From Acidimicrobiaceae bacterium (GTDB taxonomy: Bacteria > Actinomycetota > Acidimicrobiia > Acidimicrobiales > RAAP-2), in assembly GCA_003163875.1 (NCBI GenBank), contig PLRK01000122.1:1-48046 (forward strand): DNA of 48,046 nucleotides, in the 5' to 3' direction. Below the pieces are notes generated by a model. That model did no database searches and was not told the DNA's origin. It saw nothing but the letters and a program-made list of their open reading frames with translations. The position numbers were made by a program, and so were the translations under genes. This document shows positions 7,156 to 47,560 of the stretch, piece after piece; position 1 is the stretch's first letter, and the number at the start of each line of letters is the position of its first letter.

Positions 7156-8544
7156 GTGAACGCTGTACGCCGAGGCATTCGCAATGCCTTTCGAAATTCA
7201 ATGCGCACCGTCGGAGTTGTCGTCATCCTGGCGGTCGCGATCGCTCTCTCAATTTCAATGTTGATCGCACGAGACGCCGTGACCAACAAGATCAACACCG
7301 TCAAGGCCTCCACCGGCACGACGGTCAGTGTGTCGCCGAAGGGTTTCTTTGGCTTCAATGGCGGCGGCACACCGCTCTCCATGACCACGATCGATGCGCT
7401 CTTGAATCTTCCCAACGTCACCGCGGTCCAAGAATCATTCAGTGAGGAACTTTCCTCTTCCAAAACGTCGCTCACGTCGCCCACGCCCGCCGGCCAACTC
7501 GGATCGCAATTTGGTAACGGCGGCGGCTTCGGCGCCTCGGGTAGTACGACGTTCGTCATTCCCGTTCGAGTGATCGGTACCAACAGCCCTGGTAACGCCG
7601 TCGTCGGCGGGGCGAACGGCGGCGGCACCGAGAAACTCACGTCGGGGGTTGCGTTCTCGCCGACCTCAACGGCAGACGTCGCCATCGTTGGCAGCACGCT
7701 CGCAGCCAAGAACAACTTGAAAGTAGGTTCCACCTTTACTGCGTGGAACACGAAGATAACCGTCGTGGGCATCTTCAATGCGGGATCCACGTTCACCGAC
7801 GCGAGTGTCTTGATGCCCCTCGCCACCGTGCAGAAACTTGCGGACGCGCCCAACGAAGTCACCTCAGCAACCGTCATCGTCAACACGATTGGCAACGTCT
7901 CGAGTGTCGATACAGCCGTCACGAAGGCACTCGGCTCATCCGCGGACGTCACCTCGACCCAAGCGACCACCGAAGCGGCATTGTCGCCCCTCAATTCCGT
8001 GAAGACGATTTCCACCTACACCTTGATTGGATCGGTCATTGGCGCCGCGATCATCCTTCTGTTGTCGATGTTGATGATCGTTCGCGAGCGTCGACGCGAA
8101 GTTGGTGTCCTCAAAGCACTCGGCGCACCGAATCGCAGCATCAACTCGCAATTCATCGCCGAATCGACGACGTTCACAATTCTGGGCGCGATCGTCGGCT
8201 TCGTTGTCGGTATCGCCATCAGCAGTCCCATAACGTCAGCACTCGTGAGCGCCTCAGGCGGCTCGACGTCTTCGAACACAGGTGGGTTCGTGCGACGGGC
8301 GGGTGGATTCGCACCCGGTGGTAGCGGTTTTTCACCTCCGACCGGCGCCTTCGCCAACCGAGGTTCCGGTGCCTTTCACTTTGGCGGATTCTCCAACACC
8401 ATCACGCAGATCCATACGTCGGCGGGTTGGTCGACGCTCTTCTTTGCCCTCATCGCCGCAGTCGTCATCGCGGCCCTCGGAAGTACGGTCGCCGCAGCCA
8501 CCATTGTTCGAATCCGACCCGCCGAAGTCCTGAGGAGTGAGTAA
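7156..8544 (+). CDS. MacB/FtsX-type ABC transporter permease
   Basis: Membrane subunit of a MacB-like export or mechanotransmission ABC system, 462 aa. TM1 (VGVVVILAVAIALSISMLIA, about 19-38) is followed by a large extracytoplasmic MacB_PCD-like region rich in Gly, Ser and Thr. Three TM segments follow (IGSVIGAAIILLLSMLMIV; TFTILGAIVGFVVGIAISS; TLFFALIAAVVIAALGSTV) and the end is RIRPAEVLRSE, typical of this family. Unusual is a Gly/Phe/Arg-rich insert (about 375-415) between TM3 and TM4. GTG start with AAAGGG six bases upstream. Its stop overlaps the ATPase start (TAATG). Confidence 0.88.
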   Translation: MNAVRRGIRNAFRNSMRTVGVVVILAVAIALSISMLIARDAVTNKINTVKASTGTTVSVSPKGFFGFNGGGTPLSMTTIDALLNLPNVTAVQESFSEELSSSKTSLTSPTPAGQLGSQFGNGGGFGASGSTTFVIPVRVIGTNSPGNAVVGGANGGGTEKLTSGVAFSPTSTADVAIVGSTLAAKNNLKVGSTFTAWNTKITVVGIFNAGSTFTDASVLMPLATVQKLADAPNEVTSATVIVNTIGNVSSVDTAVTKALGSSADVTSTQATTEAALSPLNSVKTISTYTLIGSVIGAAIILLLSMLMIVRERRREVGVLKALGAPNRSINSQFIAESTTFTILGAIVGFVVGIAISSPITSALVSASGGSTSSNTGGFVRRAGGFAPGGSGFSPPTGAFANRGSGAFHFGGFSNTITQIHTSAGWSTLFFALIAAVVIAALGSTVAAATIVRIRPAEVLRSE

Positions 8545-38500: not shown

Positions 38501-38604
38501 GAGAGTCCGAGACGGGCCGCCTCGCCCACGAGTTCTTCGGGGTCACTCGCGCCGTCAAGGAAACTGAAACCCGAGTGCGCGTGCAGTTCCGCGTACGTTG
38601 CCAT
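35503..38604 (-). CDS. dnaE2: Error-prone DNA polymerase DnaE2 (ImuC)
   Basis: C-family polymerase of the SOS mutasome, 1033 aa, that copies past lesions with ImuA and ImuB. PHP domain at the N-terminus (AELHAHSGFSFLDGAS, ALTDHHGFYGVVRF); polymerase palm with GRGSAANSAVCFSLGI and PDIDVDIES; helix-hairpin-helix region; C-terminal OB domain (VHVAGVVTHRQHPETANG). The ATG at 38604 overlaps the imuB stop (TGATG) and starts at the PHP domain, so 49 upstream in-frame codons are excluded. Under LexA control through the upstream imuA promoter if the operon is intact. Confidence 0.96.
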   Translation of the reverse strand: MATYAELHAHSGFSFLDGASDPEELVGEAARLGLSGLALTDHHGFYGVVRFSDAARACGLPTIFGCELTLNGTDDRVGVADPSGSHVVVLARSPEGYRHLATMLGEAHLERGEKGAPRFSLEGVAAHAKDWLVLSGCRKGPLTRALMDEGPRAARRELECLVSAFGRDALAVELWDHGSPDDVARNDVLAQLAVTSNVDVVATGNVHYATPDAFARANVLSAIRSRQSLDEMQGWLNASPLAHLRSDAEQRRRFARWPGVVDQAGELGAQLAFDLRLVAPNLPRFPTPEGMDEQSYLEFIVTKGASVRYGTRENERVPGAWRQIDHELSVIEALGFAGYFLTVWDITEFCRRENIYCQGRGSAANSAVCFSLGITNADAVKLNLFFERFLSPARDGPPDIDVDIESGRREEVIQYVFARYGRRHAAQVAAVITYRPRSALRDVARAFGYSEEQANVLRDSVDRHAMTAKTSEVSALVVKMANELLDRPRHLGIHSAGMVLCDRPVLEVCPVEWGRMPGRSVLQWDKDDCASIGLVKFDLLGLGMLDALHRAVDQVEAFHETTIELGALEQEDAVYDLLCEADTVGVFQVESRAQMATLPRVQPRCFYDLVIEVALIRPGPIQGNAVNPYIRRRRGDEAVTYLHPRLEPILSRTLGVPLFQEQLMEMAVAVAGFSPAEADELRQAMASKRSEVRMLKLKSRFYSGMAQNGIVGADADHLFDALAAFANFGFPESHSVSFAHLVYCSAWIKHHYPAAFLVALLNAQPLGFWSPQSLVADAKRHGVRVSRPDVNRSGALATLEGSRDDPEVRLGLEALRGIGAELASRIAQGAPWEGPEDLVRRAGVQQHHLESLAAAGALDCFGTSRRAQAWAAGAAAQATPDRLAGVVTGLVAPELPTPSEMERVADDLWSMGLTTEATAIALVRASLDARGVTRAAALASVEGARVHVAGVVTHRQHPETANGAVFLNLEDETGHVNVIFSKGAWTRWSSEARSSPALVIRGSLQRGQGTLALMAESVEALELGATAPSRDWR

Positions 38605-39683
38605 CAGTCGTAGATCCCCACCAACCACCAACGTCCCGACTCGGCGACGAGCAACACCGCTTCGCCGAGTGCGAGCACCACTTGTAAGTGCGCGCGACGT
38701 CGGCCGCGACTCCACCACCGCTCGACGAGAGGCCAGGGTCCCGCGTGCCAAAGAATGGTCCGTCGGGCGTAGTGGGTAAGCAGCAACGTCGTGGGCTCAG
38801 CGCTCAGTACGCCGCGGGCGTCAAAGAGGACCGGCGCGTCGTTCGCGTCACGCAACTGCACCACGACTGGATGGAGCAATGTCGTCGCCGGTGAAGGGGC
38901 ACGAATCTGCCCAGGCCAGGGGGCGCGATCACGGCTCTCGACGAGCGGCGAGCCCCACGGCACGAGTGTGGCTCGATCCTCGGGGACCCTTCCTCCTTGC
39001 AACGACGCAACGAGCAGGGCGTCGGCGCCGAGTCGGCGCCGCACGCGATGTGCGGCGGCGAACGCCCGATCATCGCCAGCACCGCGCTGTCCGAAGAAGC
39101 CGAGTTGTTCACTACCCTGCTCGTGCTCACCTCGCAGGTTACGAAGTCGCTGGGCGAGACGCAGGTCGCGCTGCCCAGCCAATTCGCCAACCTCGCCGCG
39201 AGCAACGCGATGCAGCTCGAGCGCGTGTTTGTTGAAACGCTCCCCCACTCGCGCTGGTGCCACGTCCGCGAAGGAACCCAGCGTGTATAGCCCTAGACGC
39301 CGACACGTCGTGGTGAGGTCCTTTCGCCCGAGTACCTCAAGGGACTGGGCCCGACGAAACGATGCCGTCGCACCCGGCGCCAGTACACGCTGCTCGCGTG
39401 CAGCGAGTTCAGCGCAGAAGAGTCCATCGGCGATTCCCACGCGGGCTTCGTAGCCCGTAACGTCGTGCACGGTGTCACTCGCCATCGCGACGACCTTCTC
39501 CTCGCCACCGAAGAAGCGGCTCGGACCCCTCACCGGCAACACATACAGGCCGAGTCGCACGATCTCGGCGAAAGGACAGAACACACACAGCGCGTCAAGT
39601 AGCGCCAAGGAGTCGCGCAACGTTGAACCATCCGGTTTCTCGCGCGATAACTCCTCAACCCAGATCGCGAGAAGTCGTTCCAT
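38604..39683 (-). CDS. imuB: ImuB-like inactive Y-family polymerase
   Basis: Adaptor subunit of the ImuA-ImuB-DnaE2 mutasome, 359 aa, shorter than the roughly 500 aa of many ImuB proteins. The Y-family core is recognisable (SRFFGGEEKVVAMASDTVHDVTGYEARVGIADGLFCAELAA; LGLYTLGSFADVAPARVGERFNKHALELHRVARG), and the C-terminus RWWLVGIYD is typical of ImuB. The catalytic acidic residues are absent: the first strand is LAIWVEEL and no SxDE follows. ATG 39683 directly follows the imuA stop (TAGATG). It is expected to bridge DnaE2 and the beta clamp; a clamp motif was not identified. Confidence 0.88.
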   Translation of the reverse strand: MERLLAIWVEELSREKPDGSTLRDSLALLDALCVFCPFAEIVRLGLYVLPVRGPSRFFGGEEKVVAMASDTVHDVTGYEARVGIADGLFCAELAAREQRVLAPGATASFRRAQSLEVLGRKDLTTTCRRLGLYTLGSFADVAPARVGERFNKHALELHRVARGEVGELAGQRDLRLAQRLRNLRGEHEQGSEQLGFFGQRGAGDDRAFAAAHRVRRRLGADALLVASLQGGRVPEDRATLVPWGSPLVESRDRAPWPGQIRAPSPATTLLHPVVVQLRDANDAPVLFDARGVLSAEPTTLLLTHYARRTILWHAGPWPLVERWWSRGRRRAHLQVVLALGEAVLLVAESGRWWLVGIYD

Positions 39684-40343
39684 CTACGTCGCCGCCGCTC
39701 GGCCTTTTCGATTCGGCAGTATCACGACGTGCTCGCTCGCGCGCCCCGCTTCACCACGTCCGCTCACGCGAACGTTGAGATAACGCGCGTCGAGTCGCGA
39801 CGACGTGGCCCAACGCGCCTCGGTGATGGCAAAGCACAAATCGGGAGGAAGCGGCCAGGATGCGTGCGGCTCACTCAACACGATCAGCACCGTGCCACGC
39901 TCTCGCACGCGATCCATGATCTTTCGCGCGACGCCGTGTGACGCGCGCGAAGGTGGACGCACCACCACAAGATCGACCCCGTCGAGCAGGTCCGCCACGG
40001 ATTCGGCCCACGCGCCACGCGGGCGAGGTACGAAGAGGACTCGACGAAGATCCATCCCGAGTTCCGCCATCGCCACGACCCCTGGATCATCCACCCCCAC
40101 CACACCAGCCCAGTGACCATTCGCGCTCGAGGCGGTGAGCAGGCTGAGGGCCAAACTCAACCCACCGAATCCCGGTGACGCTTCGACGACCACAGTGGCG
40201 CCACGGCGCAGTCCACCACCGGGCACCAACGCCTTCCAGGGCTCACCAAGGGGCAGCATGCGGCTTTTCGCGAGGGTGACCGGGCGAAGTGAGGCCACCA
40301 GATTCTCAGGCAACGTAGGACGTGTAGAAGAAAAAGCGAACAT
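39684..40343 (-). CDS. imuA: ImuA-like RecA-related mutasome protein
   Basis: RecA-like accessory protein, 219 aa from the ATG at 40343. It has a RecA-core-like pattern (EASPGFGGLSLALSLLTASSANGHWAGVVGVDDPGVVAMAELG), but the P-loop is degenerate (no GKT/S), as in other ImuA proteins. The open frame continues to 40667, but those codons lie inside the inserted element and are an artefact. ATG 40343 sits inside a LexA box, nine bases after a TACTCT -10 box, so the transcript has almost no leader; GTG 40298 or ATG 40259 are alternatives. Neighbouring imuB and dnaE2 support the identity. Confidence 0.85.
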   Translation of the reverse strand: MFAFSSTRPTLPENLVASLRPVTLAKSRMLPLGEPWKALVPGGGLRRGATVVVEASPGFGGLSLALSLLTASSANGHWAGVVGVDDPGVVAMAELGMDLRRVLFVPRPRGAWAESVADLLDGVDLVVVRPPSRASHGVARKIMDRVRERGTVLIVLSEPHASWPLPPDLCFAITEARWATSSRLDARYLNVRVSGRGEAGRASEHVVILPNRKGRAAAT

Positions 40344-40350
40344 ATGTTCG
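40337..40350. promoter_or_regulatory. LexA/SOS box of the imuA-imuB-dnaE2 operon
   Basis: CGAACATATGTTCG is a perfect 14-bp palindrome matching the Gram-positive/mycobacterial LexA consensus (CGAAC-N4-GTTCG). It spans the transcription start region and the imuA ATG, just downstream of the -10 box, so LexA bound here would block initiation. Confidence 0.85.
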
Positions 40351-40352
40351 TA

Positions 40353-40381
40353 AGAGTAGCGGGTGACGTGTAACTTGACAA
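40353..40381 (-). promoter_or_regulatory. Hybrid imuA promoter: -35 from the IS end, -10 from the chromosome
   Basis: On the minus strand TTGTCA (40381-40376, inside the element's left terminal repeat) is followed after 17 bases by TACTCT (40358-40353, target site and flank). The pre-insertion sequence, rebuilt by joining the flanks and keeping one target copy, reads TTGTCG, 17 bases, TACTCT. Confidence 0.6.
40354..40361. repeat. Left 8-bp target-site duplication of the IS element
   Basis: GAGTAGCG directly precedes the left terminal repeat and recurs as 43091-43098 directly after the right one. Confidence 0.95.
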
Positions 40382-40386
40382 ACCCA
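40362..40386 (+). repeat. Left 25-bp terminal inverted repeat
   Basis: Perfect reverse complement of 43066-43090. Read inward it carries TTGACA (40375-40380), the -35 of the transposase promoter; read outward it carries TTGTCA, which serves imuA. Confidence 0.95.
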
Positions 40387-40403
40387 TAATTCCGTGGGAC
40401 AAT
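40375..40403 (+). promoter_or_regulatory. Transposase promoter (leaderless)
   Basis: TTGACA at 40375-40380, 17 bases, GACAAT at 40398-40403, then six bases to the ATG at 40410. Confidence 0.6.
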
Positions 40404-40409
40404 TAGGTC

Positions 40410-41411
40410 ATGGAAAAAATCACCTTCGGCAACATGGCCCTTCAAATCACTAGTGAGGCAGACGCCTACGAGTACATGGAAACCCTTCGCTGGCCTAACG
40501 GTGAGGTCGTATGCCCCCACTGTGGCGTCCTCGGGAGCCACTACTACCTGAACCCTGACAATGGAGTGTCCCGCACCACGACCCGAGGCAAGCAGTCCCA
40601 ACGCCGAGTCTGGAAGTGCAAGGACTGTCGAAAGCAATTCTCCGTCACCACCGGCACGATCTTTCACGGCTCGAAGGTGTCGCTTCGAATCTGGCTCTTC
40701 GTGTTCTTTGAGATGTGCGCCAACAAGAACGGGATTGCCGCCCGTGAGATCGCCCGTAAGTACGACGTGGCCCCAAAGACCGCGTGGTTCATGACGCAGC
40801 GGATTCGTGAAGCGATGGCGAATGACTCCTCAGGCAAGTTGTCCGGCAACATCGTTATGGACGAAACGTACATCGGCGGCAAGCCTGAGAACTGGCACGC
40901 CAACGACCCGCGCAGGGCTAAGACTGGTTTCACCACGGCGCGAAAGACTGCGGCCATCGCTCTCATTTCAGAAGTGACCGGCGAGATCCGCACCAAGGCC
41001 GTTACAAACGTGACCGGCACCGTCATTCAAAACATGGTGCGCGACAATGTCATGCCAGCCGAGACGACCCTTCACTCAGACTCAGCACCGCTCTATCGCA
41101 CGATTGCGAAAGAACTGAAGGCTCACCACGTCGTGAACCACCACGCGGGGCAGTACGTCACGGAGCTGTCAAGTGGCACCAACAAGGCCGAGAATTTCTT
41201 TAGCCAGTTGAAGCGATCCATTGACGGTACGCACCACTGCATCAGCCCTATGCACGTTCAGCGTTATTTGACCGAATTTGCTTTCCGTCACTCGACGCAC
41301 GACCTCACTGACACCGAGCGAATGTCTCGACTTATGGGCCAAGTCCCTGGAACTAGACTTAGTTACCGGCCCCTAACTTCGCGAATACTTGACTCCACGA
41401 GCTTTGTCTGA
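40410..41411 (+). CDS. IS1595-family (ISXO2-like) transposase
   Basis: DDE-type transposase, 333 aa. N-terminal zinc ribbon with CPHC (about 32-35) and CKDC (about 70-73); helix-turn-helix region around GIAAREIARKYDVAPKTAWFM; catalytic acidic residues in NIVMDETYIGGK and TLHSDSAPLY, and the third motif NKAENFFSQLKRSI, where IS1595 enzymes use Asn/Glu variants. Length is normal for the family. The frame is complete. Promoter is in the left terminal repeat. Confidence 0.95.
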   Translation: MEKITFGNMALQITSEADAYEYMETLRWPNGEVVCPHCGVLGSHYYLNPDNGVSRTTTRGKQSQRRVWKCKDCRKQFSVTTGTIFHGSKVSLRIWLFVFFEMCANKNGIAAREIARKYDVAPKTAWFMTQRIREAMANDSSGKLSGNIVMDETYIGGKPENWHANDPRRAKTGFTTARKTAAIALISEVTGEIRTKAVTNVTGTVIQNMVRDNVMPAETTLHSDSAPLYRTIAKELKAHHVVNHHAGQYVTELSSGTNKAENFFSQLKRSIDGTHHCISPMHVQRYLTEFAFRHSTHDLTDTERMSRLMGQVPGTRLSYRPLTSRILDSTSFV

Positions 41412-41433
41412 TATGGGCAGTTAGGATGAAATC

Positions 41434-41673
41434 ATGAGCGAACTCGAGAAGCTTTTTAATTGGTACATAGAGCACCAGGCGGAACTCGTCGAAAAGTTTG
41501 ACGGACGCTACATTGTCATCCACGATGACGCTGTAGTCGGCAACTTTGAATCGGAGTTGGAAGCGTACGAGTTTGCAAAAGAGAATTGCGAGCCTGGAAA
41601 ATTCATGATTCAACTGGTGAGCCCTGGAACCAGTAATTACACTCAAACGTTCCACTCACGAGTTGTAATTTGA
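41434..41673 (+). CDS. Small DUF5678-like passenger protein
   Basis: 79-aa protein. The segment EKFDGRYIVIHDDAVVGNFESELEAYEFAKEN followed by PGKFMIQLV looks like the DUF5678 pattern (Y-V-A-hydrophobic...G..V..G....EA...A), a small alpha/beta domain often found beside retropepsin-like proteases in bacteria and archaea. TAGGAT lies exactly six bases before the ATG, so it has its own leaderless promoter. Its TGA overlaps the TTG start of the protease gene. Function unknown; it may be a partner or substrate of the protease. Confidence 0.75.
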   Translation: MSELEKLFNWYIEHQAELVEKFDGRYIVIHDDAVVGNFESELEAYEFAKENCEPGKFMIQLVSPGTSNYTQTFHSRVVI

Positions 41674-42209
41674 CATTTAAGCCTTCAAATTCCCTAACTA
41701 TCACGGGCAACGGAATACTCCGAGAGTTACGTTGTCCAATTGTGATAAGTGACGCGATGTCTGATCCCTTAACCGCGACGCCGGGACGATTCGCAAACTT
41801 TGAAGCAATTTGGGATACCGGCGCTACGGGTTCCGTAATAACTCAAAAAGTTGTTGACGCGCTTCAAATTTCACCTGTTGGGCTAACACGAGTGCTTGGC
41901 GTGAATTCGTCACAACTCAGCGAGGAATATCTCGTGAATTTCGTACTGCCTAGTCAAGTGGGGATCCGGGGTGTTCGAGTAACACTTGGACAGTTGCCGG
42001 GTGGGATAGAAGCCTTGATTGGAATGGACATCATCAACTTGGGCGACTTTCATATTTCAAATGTCGCGGGCAACACAGTGATGTCGTTTCGCGTTCCTTC
42101 TCTTGAGGTCATTGACTACGTGAAAATTGGAGAGGCACGGCAAAAGACACAAACTTCCAATCCACGTGGAGGTCATCGACCAAACCCAAAAAAGCCAAAA
42201 CGACGGTAA
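41670..42209 (+). CDS. Retropepsin-like aspartic protease (passenger)
   Basis: 179 aa. The aspartic-protease motif FEAIWDTGATGSVITQKVV carries the catalytic DTGAT, followed by the expected hydrophobic strands and ALIGMDIINLGDFHISN, the usual closing feature of single-domain retropepsins that act as dimers. A basic low-complexity tail (RGGHRPNPKKPKRR) could bind nucleic acid. TTG start at 41670 overlaps the upstream stop (TTGA), giving translational coupling with the DUF5678-like gene. Being inside a transposable element is unusual for this pair. Confidence 0.8.
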   Translation: MTFKPSNSLTITGNGILRELRCPIVISDAMSDPLTATPGRFANFEAIWDTGATGSVITQKVVDALQISPVGLTRVLGVNSSQLSEEYLVNFVLPSQVGIRGVRVTLGQLPGGIEALIGMDIINLGDFHISNVAGNTVMSFRVPSLEVIDYVKIGEARQKTQTSNPRGGHRPNPKKPKRR

Positions 42210-42218
42210 AATTTATCT

Positions 42219-42338
42219 ATGCCCCGTGACGCCTTTGAAGGATACGACGAACCGGTCAATATCGACATTGACCCGGAAGAGGGCTTGAAAATCTTGCTTC
42301 AGGTTCAGCCTTGCGAAGATGAATCCGAGCCGAATTAA
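42219..42338 (+). CDS. 39-aa acidic peptide (passenger)
   Basis: Encodes a peptide starting MPRDAFEGYDEPVNIDID and ending EDESEPN, strongly acidic with a short hydrophobic stretch GLKILLQV. TAAAAT lies exactly six bases before the ATG, the best -10 match in the element, which argues that this short frame is a real gene. Its stop overlaps the end of the convergent two-TM gene. I recall similar short acidic ORFs next to DUF5678/retropepsin pairs, but could not search. Function unknown. Confidence 0.55.
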   Translation: MPRDAFEGYDEPVNIDIDPEEGLKILLQVQPCEDESEPN

Positions 42339-43045
42339 TCAGATTCAAGGGCGCAGGGCGAGAAGACTACCTTGAAGGTCGTAACTTCTCGGAGGTAGCC
42401 CAAAACGGTCACACGTCTGCCTCGGGGCAGCATGGTGAATTGCTCACGATAATCCTCACTGAAGTGACCATGGACATCCACCGAGTTGAATGTTGCGAGA
42501 AATCCAGCCCTGAATTTGACATCGAGGTAGTCAGGCTCGAAATATCCCCGGCTTGGCTTAACGTCCTTTATTACCCCCTTGAATCGCAGAAGTCGTTGTG
42601 CATAGGGGGCGCTCATTTCTTGAGCTCGAATATTGGTGTTCCTTTTAAACATTCGTACGAATTTGTAGGGCTTTACGTCGATACGCGGGAGCGAGGACGC
42701 AAATTTTTCCCCTGGCACTACCGATTCAGGCTGGTCTTTCGAAACTTCGGGAATCTCAATATGTGGAGGGTCATTTCGCGATTTCGCCTCACTCTCCCTT
42801 CGCCAGTTTCGCCAGCCCAAAAATAGGGCGCGCAAAAAACAGACAAACGCGATTCCCTCTACAACAAATCCGAGTTGGAACCATCCGTATGACCACAGAT
42901 CTTGGCGACTTCCAGCTTTGCTGAATTGAGCCAGAGCGATTTGAATGCAAAGAACGCCAATCACAGCGATAAACGCAGTTGCGCCGAACCAATAGCCGGC
43001 TCGTTCGAAATGGGTAGCCCTAGTCGAACCGCCAGAAGTAGACAT
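42335..43045 (-). CDS. Two-TM passenger protein with OB-like C-terminal domain
   Basis: 236 aa. TM1 is about 21-40 (ATAFIAVIGVLCIQIALAQF), TM2 about 55-73 (GFVVEGIAFVCFLRALFLGW), then a charged linker and a cytosolic beta-rich domain (about 150-232) with RLLRFKGVIKDVKPSRGYFE and PRGRRVTVLGYLREVTTF, resembling the tRNA_anti-like OB fold of small membrane proteins. Expressed inward from the right end: TATGCT is six bases before the ATG at 43045. Role in the element unknown. Confidence 0.65.
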   Translation of the reverse strand: MSTSGGSTRATHFERAGYWFGATAFIAVIGVLCIQIALAQFSKAGSRQDLWSYGWFQLGFVVEGIAFVCFLRALFLGWRNWRRESEAKSRNDPPHIEIPEVSKDQPESVVPGEKFASSLPRIDVKPYKFVRMFKRNTNIRAQEMSAPYAQRLLRFKGVIKDVKPSRGYFEPDYLDVKFRAGFLATFNSVDVHGHFSEDYREQFTMLPRGRRVTVLGYLREVTTFKVVFSPCALESD

Positions 43046-43065
43046 TTCACAAGCATACGGCGAGT

Positions 43066-43090
43066 TGGGTTTGTCAAGTTACACGTCACC
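43066..43090 (-). repeat. Right 25-bp terminal inverted repeat
   Basis: Perfect reverse complement of the left repeat at 40362-40386. It also carries an outward TTGTCA, which could supply a -35 to genes on its right. Confidence 0.95.
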
Positions 43091-43098
43091 GAGTAGCG
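43091..43098. repeat. Right 8-bp target-site duplication
   Basis: GAGTAGCG, identical to 40354-40361. Confidence 0.95.
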
Positions 43099-44239: not shown

Positions 44240-47200
44240 TCAGCTCTTTCGAGCCACGGCGGACGGGTTAGTGGTGATATTTGACGCGTTCGGATTCGCA
44301 ACGTTGGGAAACCACAAGACGGTCACGGTGGGTGCACCATCGACCCAACATTCGACGCTCTGATTCTTCAAGAGTGCGCACGAGTAGCCCGAGTCCAGCG
44401 ACAGGTTCAACTCGCCCGGAAGGCTGAGCGCCGGCGCCGCCGGCGCCGCTGCCGTGGTGGTGTTCGCGCTAAGCGCGGAAGCACTGTTCAGCCCCCAGCA
44501 ACTCACCATGCCGCTCGCCAGCTTGGCGCAACTATTGAAGTTGCCGACTGCGAGACTCGTCGCACCACTGATTCCCGTGACGACGACGGGCGCGGTCGAA
44601 CCCGTGGTTGACGCGTTACCCAACTCGCCGTCACCGTTGTAGCCCCAGCACTCGACGGAGCCAGTACGAAGAAGCGCACACGTGTTGGAGAAGCCAACAC
44701 CGATCGCGCTCGCCGCGCTAAGGCCTTGCACGATAACGGGGACTCGCGACACCGTGGTCGTTCCGTCACCGAGCTGACCGTACGAGTTGGCACCCCAGCA
44801 CATGGCCGTGCCATTGGCGAGAATCGCGCACGTGTGGTCTTCGTCAACCTCGATCGAGGTCGCGCCACGAAGATTCGTCACCGCGACCGGTGTCTTCTCA
44901 GTCAGGAACGTGCCGTTTCCAAGTTGTCCGTTATCGTTGTAGCCCCAACATTTGGCGGTGCCACCAACAATGAGCGCGCAGCGGAAGTGGAAGCCTGACG
45001 TCAATTGGCGAACGCCAGTGAGCCCGCTCACCGTCACCGCGGTCGTCTCGTTCCCTGTTGAGCCGTTACCCAATTGCGAGAAGGTGTTGGCGCCCCAGCA
45101 CTTGACGGCACCACGAGCGACCACCGCGCAGGCGCTGTCAATGCCGGTGGAGATTTGGGTCGCGCCACTGACGCCGCGCACTTGGACTTGCGTCGCAGAA
45201 CTGAGGAGGGTTCCGTTTCCTAGTTGGCCGTAGGTGTTGTTGCCCCAGCACTTCACGCTCCCACCGACGAGCAACGCGCAGGCGAAGTTGTTACCAGCAC
45301 TGACCAATCGTGCGGGGGTGTTGGTCGCGACGAGCACGCGCGCCGATCGCACGGACGGACGACTCGTTCCCGCCGCGCTGCTTGACGTGACACTGAATCG
45401 ATAGCTATCGCCGTTGGTGAGATTCGCGATCGTGCACGAATCGGGGTCGGTGTCGGTCACGACGAGATGACAGGTGTGGGTTGGTCCATCCGAAGCGGTG
45501 TAGCTGGTAATCGCGGAGCCTCCGTCGGCCAACGGCGGCTGCCAATTGACGGTGATGCTCTGATCGCCCGATACGCCCGTGACGTGGATCGGCGGCGCCG
45601 GTACGCGGCCAGGGTTCACCGACGTAGAACTGCTCGACAATGGACTGGTGCCGGCGGCGTTGGTCGCACTCACCGAGAAAACGTAGCTTTGTCCGTTGGT
45701 GAGCCCGTTGATCGTACAGGTGTTCACCGGACCAGTACCCACGACGTCAGTGCAGGATGCACCTTGTTGATCTGAGGCGACGTAATTCGTAATGGGCGAA
45801 CTACCCGCCGACGTAGGGGTCGACCACGAGACGACTGCCAGCGCGTTGCTGGTACTCGCGACGACGTCACGCGGGGCGCTCGGGGCGCCGCTCGATGACG
45901 ATGAAGGGGTTGCAGACAGCACGTTCGAGGGCACTGAGGTTCCTTCGTCGCTTTGCGCTTCGACACTGAAGTTGTACTTTGTGCCGCTCGTCAGTCCGCT
46001 CACGACGTAGGTGGTCGACGTGATCTCGTTGGAATTGATGGGTGGCGGCGCGGGTGCCTGCGTTGCGACGCCTTCGAGGACGTCATAACCGCTGGGCGCC
46101 GTGCCAGATCCCGACGGCGCGATCCACGTCAGCGTCACACTGCCGCTCGAGGCCGTGGCGCTCACTAAAACAGGCGCGGTGAGTGTCGTCGGCGCGATGG
46201 TGCCCGTTCCTGGTCCGGTACCCGTTCCCGTGCGCGAGTTCGGTAGGGCGCTAAAGGCGCTGGCGCTGTTGGGCGAGGCGGTCGGCGTGCCATCACCAGT
46301 CGGTCCGTTGTAGACGCCCTGACTGCTCGGTGCGTTGCACAGATACGTCCCGCAGGTCCCATCGCTGCCCTGGGTCACCGGGGTGAGGTCGTTCGTATTC
46401 GCGTAGAGATACTGCACGGGATAGTTGGCATGATCCATAGGTGCAGCCAGCGCGTACAGCGCGCCGATGATGGGCGCTGCGACACTCGTGCCACCGGCGA
46501 CGATGAGCCCACCGTAGTTATACGTGTCGTACGCCCAGACGCCCGTGGACGGGTCGCCCACGGCGGCGACGTCGTTGTCGGTTCGATTTGCACAGCCGGT
46601 GTCGTCTTGCCATGCGGGCTTGGGCTCGTAGGCGCTGCATCCCCCCGCAGTGTCGGACCAGACGGTCGAGGAACCGTCGCGCACACCATTGGCACTGTGT
46701 TGGATGAGCGAGGTGCCGCCCACCGCAATAACGTCAGGCGAGGCGGCGGGGAATTCCACGCCGTAGCCTGTGTCACCGGATGCCGCCACGATCGGGATGC
46801 GCGGATGATTAAAGTACGCATTCGAGTCATTGACTTCACTGGGGTATTCCGTCGAACCGTAACTGTTGGACACCACCGTCGCGCCCAACGCGACGGCTGT
46901 GTTGACGCCGACACCGAGGTCGGCGATTGCGGCGCTCGGCGCTTCGACGAGCAGGATCTGACAATTGGGGCAAATCGCGCTGACCATGTCGATGTCGATT
47001 GACTCTTCGAGGGCCCAACTCGAACTTGCGCTAGGCAGCGGTGCCGTCGCGCCCGCGCTATTGACGATTTCTATCTTGCAACTCGTGTTGGCACTCGAGA
47101 CCGTCCCCGCAGGACAGGCGCCCAATTTGAAGAAACTCCGGTAGTAGGCGAGGTCGCTGACGGTGGTGGGACTGCTGTACGCATCAACGACGGCGACGAT

Positions 47201-47560
47201 TTGTCCGGCGCCGTTTCCGACGGCCTGGACCCACGAGGCGACGTTGTACGCCGACTGTAGGAATGCGGGAGAGTACGCGCCGTCATCACCTAACGTCGAG
47301 ACCGCGGGCGTGCTCACTCCCACCTGGTTCGGGAGCACCGCTGGCTGGATGCCGAGGACCGAGTTGCAGTGTGCCGTTTGTGCGGGTACGTCTTGGGAAC
47401 AGACATCCTGACCTTGACTGGCGAGTTGGGGTTGTGAACTCGAAGAACCCGTTGATCCGCTCGACGAGGTCGTGACGGCGTTGGCGTCGCCAACGACGCT
47501 CAGTGAAACGAGGAAAGTGGCGAAAAAGAACGTCACTGCCAAGCGAAGAGGGGTCCGCAT
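44240..47560 (-). CDS. Secreted S53 (sedolisin-like) peptidase with three FN3 domains and seven RCC1-like repeats
   Basis: Exported protein of 1106 aa, paralogue of the 26065 gene with FN3 domains inserted. Signal peptide about 1-28. The S53 domain (about 90-430) has Glu185 and Asp189 (ALEESIDIDM), oxyanion Asp263 (ASGDTGYG) and Ser359 (GGTSVAAP). A Thr/Gly/Pro-rich linker follows, then three FN3 domains (about 460-745; ITNYVASDQQGASC and ITSYTASDGPTHTC in the second and third). Seven RCC1-like repeats follow (about 750-1075), each with the paired Cys of CALL...CWG. No full pro-kumamolisin domain. ATG 47560 is followed by MRTPLRLAVTFFFATF; AGGTG lies six bases upstream. Confidence 0.88.
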   Translation of the reverse strand: MRTPLRLAVTFFFATFLVSLSVVGDANAVTTSSSGSTGSSSSQPQLASQGQDVCSQDVPAQTAHCNSVLGIQPAVLPNQVGVSTPAVSTLGDDGAYSPAFLQSAYNVASWVQAVGNGAGQIVAVVDAYSSPTTVSDLAYYRSFFKLGACPAGTVSSANTSCKIEIVNSAGATAPLPSASSSWALEESIDIDMVSAICPNCQILLVEAPSAAIADLGVGVNTAVALGATVVSNSYGSTEYPSEVNDSNAYFNHPRIPIVAASGDTGYGVEFPAASPDVIAVGGTSLIQHSANGVRDGSSTVWSDTAGGCSAYEPKPAWQDDTGCANRTDNDVAAVGDPSTGVWAYDTYNYGGLIVAGGTSVAAPIIGALYALAAPMDHANYPVQYLYANTNDLTPVTQGSDGTCGTYLCNAPSSQGVYNGPTGDGTPTASPNSASAFSALPNSRTGTGTGPGTGTIAPTTLTAPVLVSATASSGSVTLTWIAPSGSGTAPSGYDVLEGVATQAPAPPPINSNEITSTTYVVSGLTSGTKYNFSVEAQSDEGTSVPSNVLSATPSSSSSGAPSAPRDVVASTSNALAVVSWSTPTSAGSSPITNYVASDQQGASCTDVVGTGPVNTCTINGLTNGQSYVFSVSATNAAGTSPLSSSSTSVNPGRVPAPPIHVTGVSGDQSITVNWQPPLADGGSAITSYTASDGPTHTCHLVVTDTDPDSCTIANLTNGDSYRFSVTSSSAAGTSRPSVRSARVLVATNTPARLVSAGNNFACALLVGGSVKCWGNNTYGQLGNGTLLSSATQVQVRGVSGATQISTGIDSACAVVARGAVKCWGANTFSQLGNGSTGNETTAVTVSGLTGVRQLTSGFHFRCALIVGGTAKCWGYNDNGQLGNGTFLTEKTPVAVTNLRGATSIEVDEDHTCAILANGTAMCWGANSYGQLGDGTTTVSRVPVIVQGLSAASAIGVGFSNTCALLRTGSVECWGYNGDGELGNASTTGSTAPVVVTGISGATSLAVGNFNSCAKLASGMVSCWGLNSASALSANTTTAAAPAAPALSLPGELNLSLDSGYSCALLKNQSVECWVDGAPTVTVLWFPNVANPNASNITTNPSAVARKS

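Follow-up and report, generated by a model that had tools for sequence, protein, structure and literature searches.

We find that a mobile element lies in the promoter of an SOS mutagenesis operon in a 48,046-nt stretch of DNA from an Acidimicrobiaceae bacterium (contig PLRK01000122.1, analysed over this whole length and called the window below). We conclude that it is probably a passenger-carrying transposon of the IS1595 type, with a backbone that recurs and a middle that varies, that prefers a single 8-bp site in an SOS promoter and enters it in either orientation. The element has exact ends and a target-site duplication (TSD); sister genomes have the site empty; the same octamer has been used repeatedly within the genus; different cargo lies between like ends; and the genes tested are under purifying selection. 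The backbone would consist of 25-bp ends, a transposase at the left end, an acidic microprotein of about 39 amino acids (aa) and, usually, a convergent right-end gene for a membrane-anchored protein, while the middle would act as a cassette slot, here holding a translationally overlapping DUF5678-retropepsin pair. Genomes, contigs and loci are labelled G, C and L, the window's genome being G000.

The element end was found in 11 of 99 genomes of the genus at up to three mismatches (<=3), and in eight of the 99 at 0-1 mismatch (G000, G009, G010, G015, G017, G063, G067 and G071); the ends with two or three mismatches, in G069, G070 and G094, are located elsewhere and lie outside the eight copies. 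Seven of the eight copies occupy the same 8 bp upstream of imuA', in the LexA-controlled promoter of imuA'-imuB-dnaE2, with its -35 on one side and its -10 on the other. Both flanks were read in G000, G067, G017, G063 and G071, and the flank on the side of the SRAP-like gene in G010 and G015; by pattern, such a gene starts within 400 bp in 71 of 93 imuA' loci, and the one tested is SRAP (6e-72). The eighth copy, in G009, lies away from imuA', and the imuA' site of that genome is empty. The transposase end faces imuA' in four copies (G000, G063, G071, G015) and the other end does so in three (G017, G067, G010). In all five copies that are complete at the imuA' site the two TSD copies agree with each other; those of the window read GAGTAGCG, and the remaining four elements all have GAGTAGCC.

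The imuA' search matched 92 of the 99 genomes, and we read 93 upstream regions from 91 of them, setting aside eight weak hits and the partial ones of G002 and G100:C45; the site was unreadable in G068 (N at the site) and G020 (contig ends at the site). On a DNA tree of imuA' covering 91 of the 93 loci (G105 and G113 were too short), the five complete filled loci need five changes, all five forced by well-supported branches; these loci are not clustered on the tree, because 500 of 500 shuffles were equally low. Counting G010 and a probable case, G072, as filled gives seven changes, of which at least six are forced. Repeated independent insertion at one site is thus what we find, with seven of eight located copies, two orientations and five forced changes. 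The preference calls for more than the octamer, since GAGTAGCS occurs 110 times in the window's own genome (52 + 58, including the element's two copies). An initial annotation, made from the sequence of the window, had recognised the element and overlooked this repeated insertion at one SOS promoter, its most unusual feature.

The mobility of the element, its exact ends and its possession of passenger genes are all supported. The window flanks plus one duplication copy align across the junction to the empty site of the nearest sister, G120 (imuA' protein 94% identical), at 88.5% over 1804 bp, 44 of them beyond the junction, followed by a second block at 75.6% over 1264 bp. Assembly G010 contains an empty contig, C41, and a filled one, C58, which are identical for 59 bp as far as the duplicated bases, these included, and then diverge; we read these as both alleles within one population, the alternative being an assembly error. 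The initial annotation had named an empty site in a sister genome as the proof of mobility, and such a site is present in G120; it had also held that the unit would be a coincidence if cargo and transposase never co-occurred elsewhere; G009 has the transposase, DUF5678, retropepsin and peptide between the same ends. Its perfect terminal repeats, 8-bp duplication and full transposase frame also held up, the repeats being complementary at 25 of 25 positions and the frame unbroken. We take the element to be intact and, probably, recently moved.

Its placement among IS1595-like elements is borne out by models above their cut-offs: the transposase matches PF12762 (5.5e-31, 108 bits) and PF12760 (1.5e-14, 54 bits) in Pfam, and the NCBIfam IS1595 model NF033547 at 163 bits (cut-off 75). 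The DDE_Tnp_IS1595 domain with an N-terminal zinc ribbon, the family model, the 8-bp duplication and the inverted repeats together place it in the family. The DDE mechanism of transposition is established for IS1595 elements, and the transposase would move this one in that way. An 8-bp TSD in the IS1595 family and a terminal GG in the related Merlin elements are given in PMC8101967. The six closest transposases in genome contigs are 74-85% identical and all from Acidimicrobiaceae, and five carry palsa or bog as isolate names; the closest of all is that of G067.

Insertion at this octamer would sever the native -35 from the imuA' promoter, and the outward half of the terminal repeat would supply a new one, TTGTCA, 17 bp from the resident TACTCT. 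The typical native promoter consists of TTGGCG, an 18-bp spacer, TACTCT and then the box GAACATATGTTC, which contains the start codon. Among the 87 loci not labelled filled, which include G010's empty contig, G020 (cut at the site) and G068 (N), TACTCT is present in 57 and TTGGCG at 18 bp, the commonest native -35, in 43. All five filled loci with a readable imuA'-side end carry TTGTCA-17-TACTCT, and this arrangement arises in either orientation because both element ends are the same. Because the terminal repeat brings TTGTCA exactly 17 bp from TACTCT, the SOS operon is probably still expressed after insertion, and still LexA-controlled, through the predicted hybrid promoter. An inward TTGACA, also present at both ends, could be used by the transposase and by the gene at the right end.

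This promoter invites an explanation by selection rather than by targeting: the element would insert widely, and copies at imuA' would be kept because a promoter nearer to consensus than the native one raises the SOS mutasome. The presence of TTGTCA-17-TACTCT in five of five filled loci, set against the commonest native TTGGCG at 18 bp, speaks for this, and the same outward -35 at both ends would account for both orientations. We nevertheless consider it unlikely, since the insertions coincide to the base when a spacer of 16 or 18 bp ought to work almost equally well, since only one of the eight copies lies elsewhere although most random sites should be neutral, and since that one copy, in G009, sits off imuA' at a site likened by eye to the main one (AGAATCTCCAC versus AGAGTAGCCAC). 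We infer instead that the site was chosen by the transposase, which would favour this imuA' octamer within the genus in both orientations.

Two observations concern the operon itself. Downstream of imuA' lie a divergent imuB-like gene and then dnaE2 (Pfam); the protein in the imuB position (window 38604-39683) reaches no better than E 0.28 against the Y-family polymerase domain, and is therefore very divergent or non-catalytic. The imuA' promoter of G064 (L160, G064:C89, 1152-1176) resembles the terminal repeat, with 8 of 25 positions mismatched and ACTTGACAAA in common; with no transposase nearby, the likeness is a relic or a coincidence. We did not count G064 as an insertion, as the 12 kb read gave no transposase match and the neighbouring gene is the same as the window's.

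Cargo is interchangeable between like ends, and the acidic peptide persists. The middle consists of DUF5678 and the retropepsin in the window and G009, of Panacea in G067 and G094 (Pfam) and G015 (by eye), and of NYN in G071 and G135 (PADLOC HEC-09 at 2e-40 and 3e-24); it also includes DUF5343 in G135, DUF3467 in G017 and an RHH protein in L038. In G187 an M78 protease stands beside the transposase (capP, 3.7e-22), and the two proteins of G063 and the proteins of G143 and G545 are unclassified. The retropepsin pair is common to the window and G009, yet the window transposase is closest to that of G067, a pattern that points to reassortment between modules and backbones.

The DUF5678-like and retropepsin-like genes described in the initial annotation both exceed their Pfam cut-offs. 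The second is, by motif (WDTGATG) and family match (PF13650, Asp_protease_2, 28.7 bits, cut-off 24.3; PF13975 at 26.5, below its 28.2), a predicted retropepsin-like aspartyl protease. The 39-aa acidic peptide of that annotation also exists as an open reading frame and is conserved in relatives; what did not stand is its count of four passengers. Passenger genes are present, but the peptide belongs to the backbone and the right-end membrane gene occupies a recurring slot. We rejected four separate passengers, and regard the peptide as backbone, because it turns up beside cargo that is otherwise unrelated, and does so in other families too. In the small set of loci searched it was found in the window, G009, G015, G017, G063, G067, G071, G069/G070, L038 and G094 (E<=3e-5), with a divergent form in L037 and G135; in G010, G072 and G187 the contig ends before its position, so that these are uninformative. 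It forms a small protein family that matches no Pfam or NCBIfam model.

Ratios of nonsynonymous to synonymous differences (pN/pS) between the window and G009 are 0.28 for the transposase, 0.24 for DUF5678 and 0.12 for the retropepsin, and range from 0.14 to 0.53 for the microprotein (28 pairs). These low values indicate purifying selection, and thus that all four are maintained as proteins.

The right-end membrane-protein gene is, by predicted hydrophobicity, a recurring slot whose sequence changes from copy to copy. By hydropathy, 15 of 16 right-end proteins from 14 elements carry one or more hydrophobic segments, usually close to the N terminus; the exception is the XRE protein of G135. They form several unrelated groups, with similarity only inside sets such as G015/G063, G017/G143/G545 and G069/L037. 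The window's protein has a short weak match to that of G017 (E 0.009), and, of 61 genomes searched, the 60 others gave no match for its gene. Its two transmembrane segments, noted initially, correspond to two hydrophobic helices; the OB domain that had been proposed found no support, with no OB family among the Pfam matches (the best being Phage_holin_3_6 at E 0.007, below cut-off) and a predicted local distance difference test score (pLDDT) below 50 for the C-terminal part of an AlphaFold model built from the single sequence, with no alignment. At one other site, L157/L158 of G069 and G070 have in common a repeat copy with two mismatches, with the acidic peptide alongside, together with a membrane protein of 198 aa; the stretch read gave no transposase match in either, one having a run of N and the other being cut by the contig end.

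The passengers would be self-serving defence or addiction modules, which is the simplest reading of their resemblances. An ordinary IS1595 transposon with neutral hitch-hikers that share no function, drawn to imuA' as a hot spot of open promoter DNA, is a rather improbable account, though it overlaps with the one we favour and the likelihoods of the two are not exclusive. Passenger-carrying IS1595 elements are indeed known, and several of the cargo genes match no family; but those cargo genes that were tested show purifying selection, the slot layout stays similar, and the window's own genome, the sole one searched in this way, has one copy of the element for its 110 octamers, with no second copy found in an assembly 90% complete in 134 contigs. 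The retropepsin matches PADLOC PDC-M08B weakly (1.6e-5; the G009 copy at 2.2e-4), so that the pair resembles PDC-M08 in its protease; DUF5678, both the window's and that of G009, matched no PDC-M08 model in PADLOC, and only one of the two components of that system was matched.

Several observations weigh against our reading of a site-preferring transposon with defence-like cargo. Even within the subgroup the G009 copy used a different target, GAATCTCC, and outside it the targets differ again (ATTCAGAG in L038, TGACGGCG in G135, GCTTGGCC in G143). G072 is a probable case only, with 5 bp of repeat before the contig ends; the tree row for G010 is its empty contig; imuA' was not found in G015, which hence has no tree row; and the 59 bp common to the two G010 contigs are the very end of C41. 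In L039, L040 and L042, which hold related transposases, the search for the acidic peptide gave no match. Panacea (that of G094 left out), DUF3467 and the G063 proteins had no PADLOC match, while PADLOC also matched two of ten host control proteins, for which reason we rejected it as proof of defence. Lastly, transposase and imuA' are similarly diverged, with mean third-position identities of 0.54 and 0.48, and their divergences correlate at about 0.5 over 21 pairs, as old vertical inheritance would likewise give; divergence alone thus failed to separate vertical from horizontal descent.

The similar divergence, and the presence of the same site in seven genomes, would fit a single ancestral insertion at imuA' followed by vertical descent, many precise losses, inversions by recombination between the repeats, and later swaps of cargo. 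This is very improbable and already disfavoured. It requires many footprint-free excisions to give five complete loci with five forced changes, and it sits poorly with TSD copies that match within each element yet differ between the window and the other four, and with the coexistence of a filled and an empty contig in G010. Vertical descent is opposed by the empty sisters, by the occurrence of two orientations and of two variants of the duplication, and by these G010 contigs.

The initial annotation did not recognise the combination of cargo genes; it is present in the window, and the DUF5678-retropepsin pair is not peculiar to the element, recurring in other bacteria. DUF5678 occurs in 21 of 396 genomes sampled from the phylum, the window's own included. 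We read 29 further DUF5678 loci from the phylum, and 19 of them have a protease match or a D-[ST]-G protease frame just downstream on the same strand (18 by pattern, L184 by tblastn; L199 and L204 represent a single protease), while one hit by pattern lies on the opposite strand; a DUF5678 match in G993:C34 gave no locus and was left out of the 29. On an IMG/VR contig (L175, 3009-3793) the pair is found at 46% and 48% identity, and its two frames share 4 bp, like those of the window. In the Leptospira phage KF114879 (L206, 2753-3513) the protease, at 33%, follows a small protein of 80 residues that is DUF5678-like by eye only, a sequence search for DUF5678 in this phage giving no match; most of the protease lies outside any annotated gene of the record.

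The ends of the element matched in 3 of 397 genomes sampled from the order, and the peptide profile in 4 of 395 from the class (its own, G143, G545 and G741) and 1 of 396 from the phylum, its own included each time, so that we rejected a general presence in order or phylum; G741 has the peptide with no transposase match in the 7 kb read. Complete elements with peptide, cargo and TSD exist in other families, in G135, G143 and G545, the last two with the same layout (the ends of G545 shifted one base by hand, giving the duplication CAGACCGG). We also rejected carriage by phages, where viral contigs gave one transposase at 36%, with no peptide, and a fragment at a contig end (32 residues at 84%) that did not permit a judgement, and by plasmids, where, among the matches listed, the transposases were below 60% identity in 328 of 328 records.

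The related 3.9-kb element in another family (L163, G135:C166, 3608-7535) lies 27 bp from a perfect SOS box, TCGAACGCGTGTTCGA (flank 7563-7578), the only one in 180 kb scanned, over the start of a DUF222-like gene (PF02720 2.6e-4, below cut-off). SOS boxes beside other insertion sites are only suggestive, because this is one in 16 flanks scanned outside the window.

Members of the IS1595 family that carry passengers are known, and were reportedly treated by Siguier and colleagues in 2009. The window element resembles them in its DDE and zinc-ribbon transposase, 8-bp duplication, GG-ended repeats and passengers, and differs in its acidic microprotein, right-end membrane-protein slot, interchangeable cargo and preference for an SOS promoter. 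We know of no IS1595 element that prefers one chromosomal site, and the literature searched, mostly without subscription journals, gave none aimed at an SOS promoter or with these differences. Tn7 repeatedly uses a preferred safe site, attTn7, and is alike in using a single chromosomal site repeatedly with little apparent damage to the host; the window element has no recognised targeting protein of the Tn7 kind, and its site lies inside a promoter and is entered in both orientations. Insertion sequences can form hybrid promoters through an outward -35 in their repeat, and the junction here likewise joins an outward -35 hexamer to a resident -10; in the window group it recurs at one base position across species and the LexA box is kept. 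Tn3-family transposons are described as carrying toxin-antitoxin pairs (PMC7157771), and are alike in having small accessory modules inside a transposon; they have another transposase family, and the modules of the window group include genes for a protease, Panacea, NYN and DUF3467.

As a small transposon that goes in between an SOS promoter's -35 and -10 and would not abolish that promoter, the element may offer a simple natural case of target choice by a DDE transposase, and possibly a coupling of mobile DNA with a mutagenic repair operon. We suggest tentatively, and as a doubtful extension, that a lineage of DDE transposons evolved to dock in the SOS mutasome promoter and rebuild it with its own end; a locus under DNA-damage control would then give neutral shelter to interchangeable cassettes of the defence or addiction kind, and the microprotein would belong to the transposition or addiction machinery; if so, the G135 element beside its perfect SOS box would make SOS promoters a more general target. 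The swappable middle would be a handle on uncharacterised small defence or addiction modules in uncultured soil bacteria, where some of the cargo resembles candidate virus-defence genes.

Table 1. Position of the element, its genes and the adjoining imuA' promoter in the window.
Feature	Position	Strand	Remarks
Whole element	40362-43090		2729 bp; IS1595-family transposon with passengers
Left terminal inverted repeat, 25 bp	40362..40386	+	ends identical or nearly so in sister genomes
Right terminal inverted repeat	43066..43090	-	perfect complement of the left one
TTGACA of left repeat	40375-40380		points inward
TTGTCA of left repeat	40376-40381	-	points outward
Target duplication GAGTAGCG, left copy	40354..40361	.	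overlaps putative -10 of imuA'; octamer also occupied in sister genomes
Target duplication GAGTAGCG, right copy	43091..43098	.	
IS1595-family transposase (zinc ribbon + DDE domain)	40410..41411	+	333 aa, frame unbroken
Cargo DUF5678 protein, 79 aa	41434..41673	+	PF18929 28.5 bits, cut-off 23.2; homologue in G009 element
Cargo retropepsin-like protease (predicted), DTGA motif	41670..42209	+	start TTG overlaps DUF5678 stop (TTGA)
Conserved acidic microprotein, 39 aa, backbone gene	42219..42338	+	protein sequence conserved in relatives
Right-end membrane protein (predicted), two hydrophobic helices	42335..43045	-	C-terminal part unclassified; convergent to other element genes; no Pfam match above cut-off
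TACTCT, putative -10 of imuA'	40353..40358	-	17 bp from the repeat's TTGTCA; promoter role predicted from sequence
LexA-box-like GAACATATGTTC	40338..40349	.	imuA' start codon inside
imuA', first gene of imuA'-imuB-dnaE2 cassette	39684..40343	-	NCBIfam NF058630 116 bits, cut-off 65; directly downstream of insertion

Near the element, window 44240-47560 encodes a secreted-looking protein of 1106 aa with fibronectin-like and repeated CWG motifs by eye.

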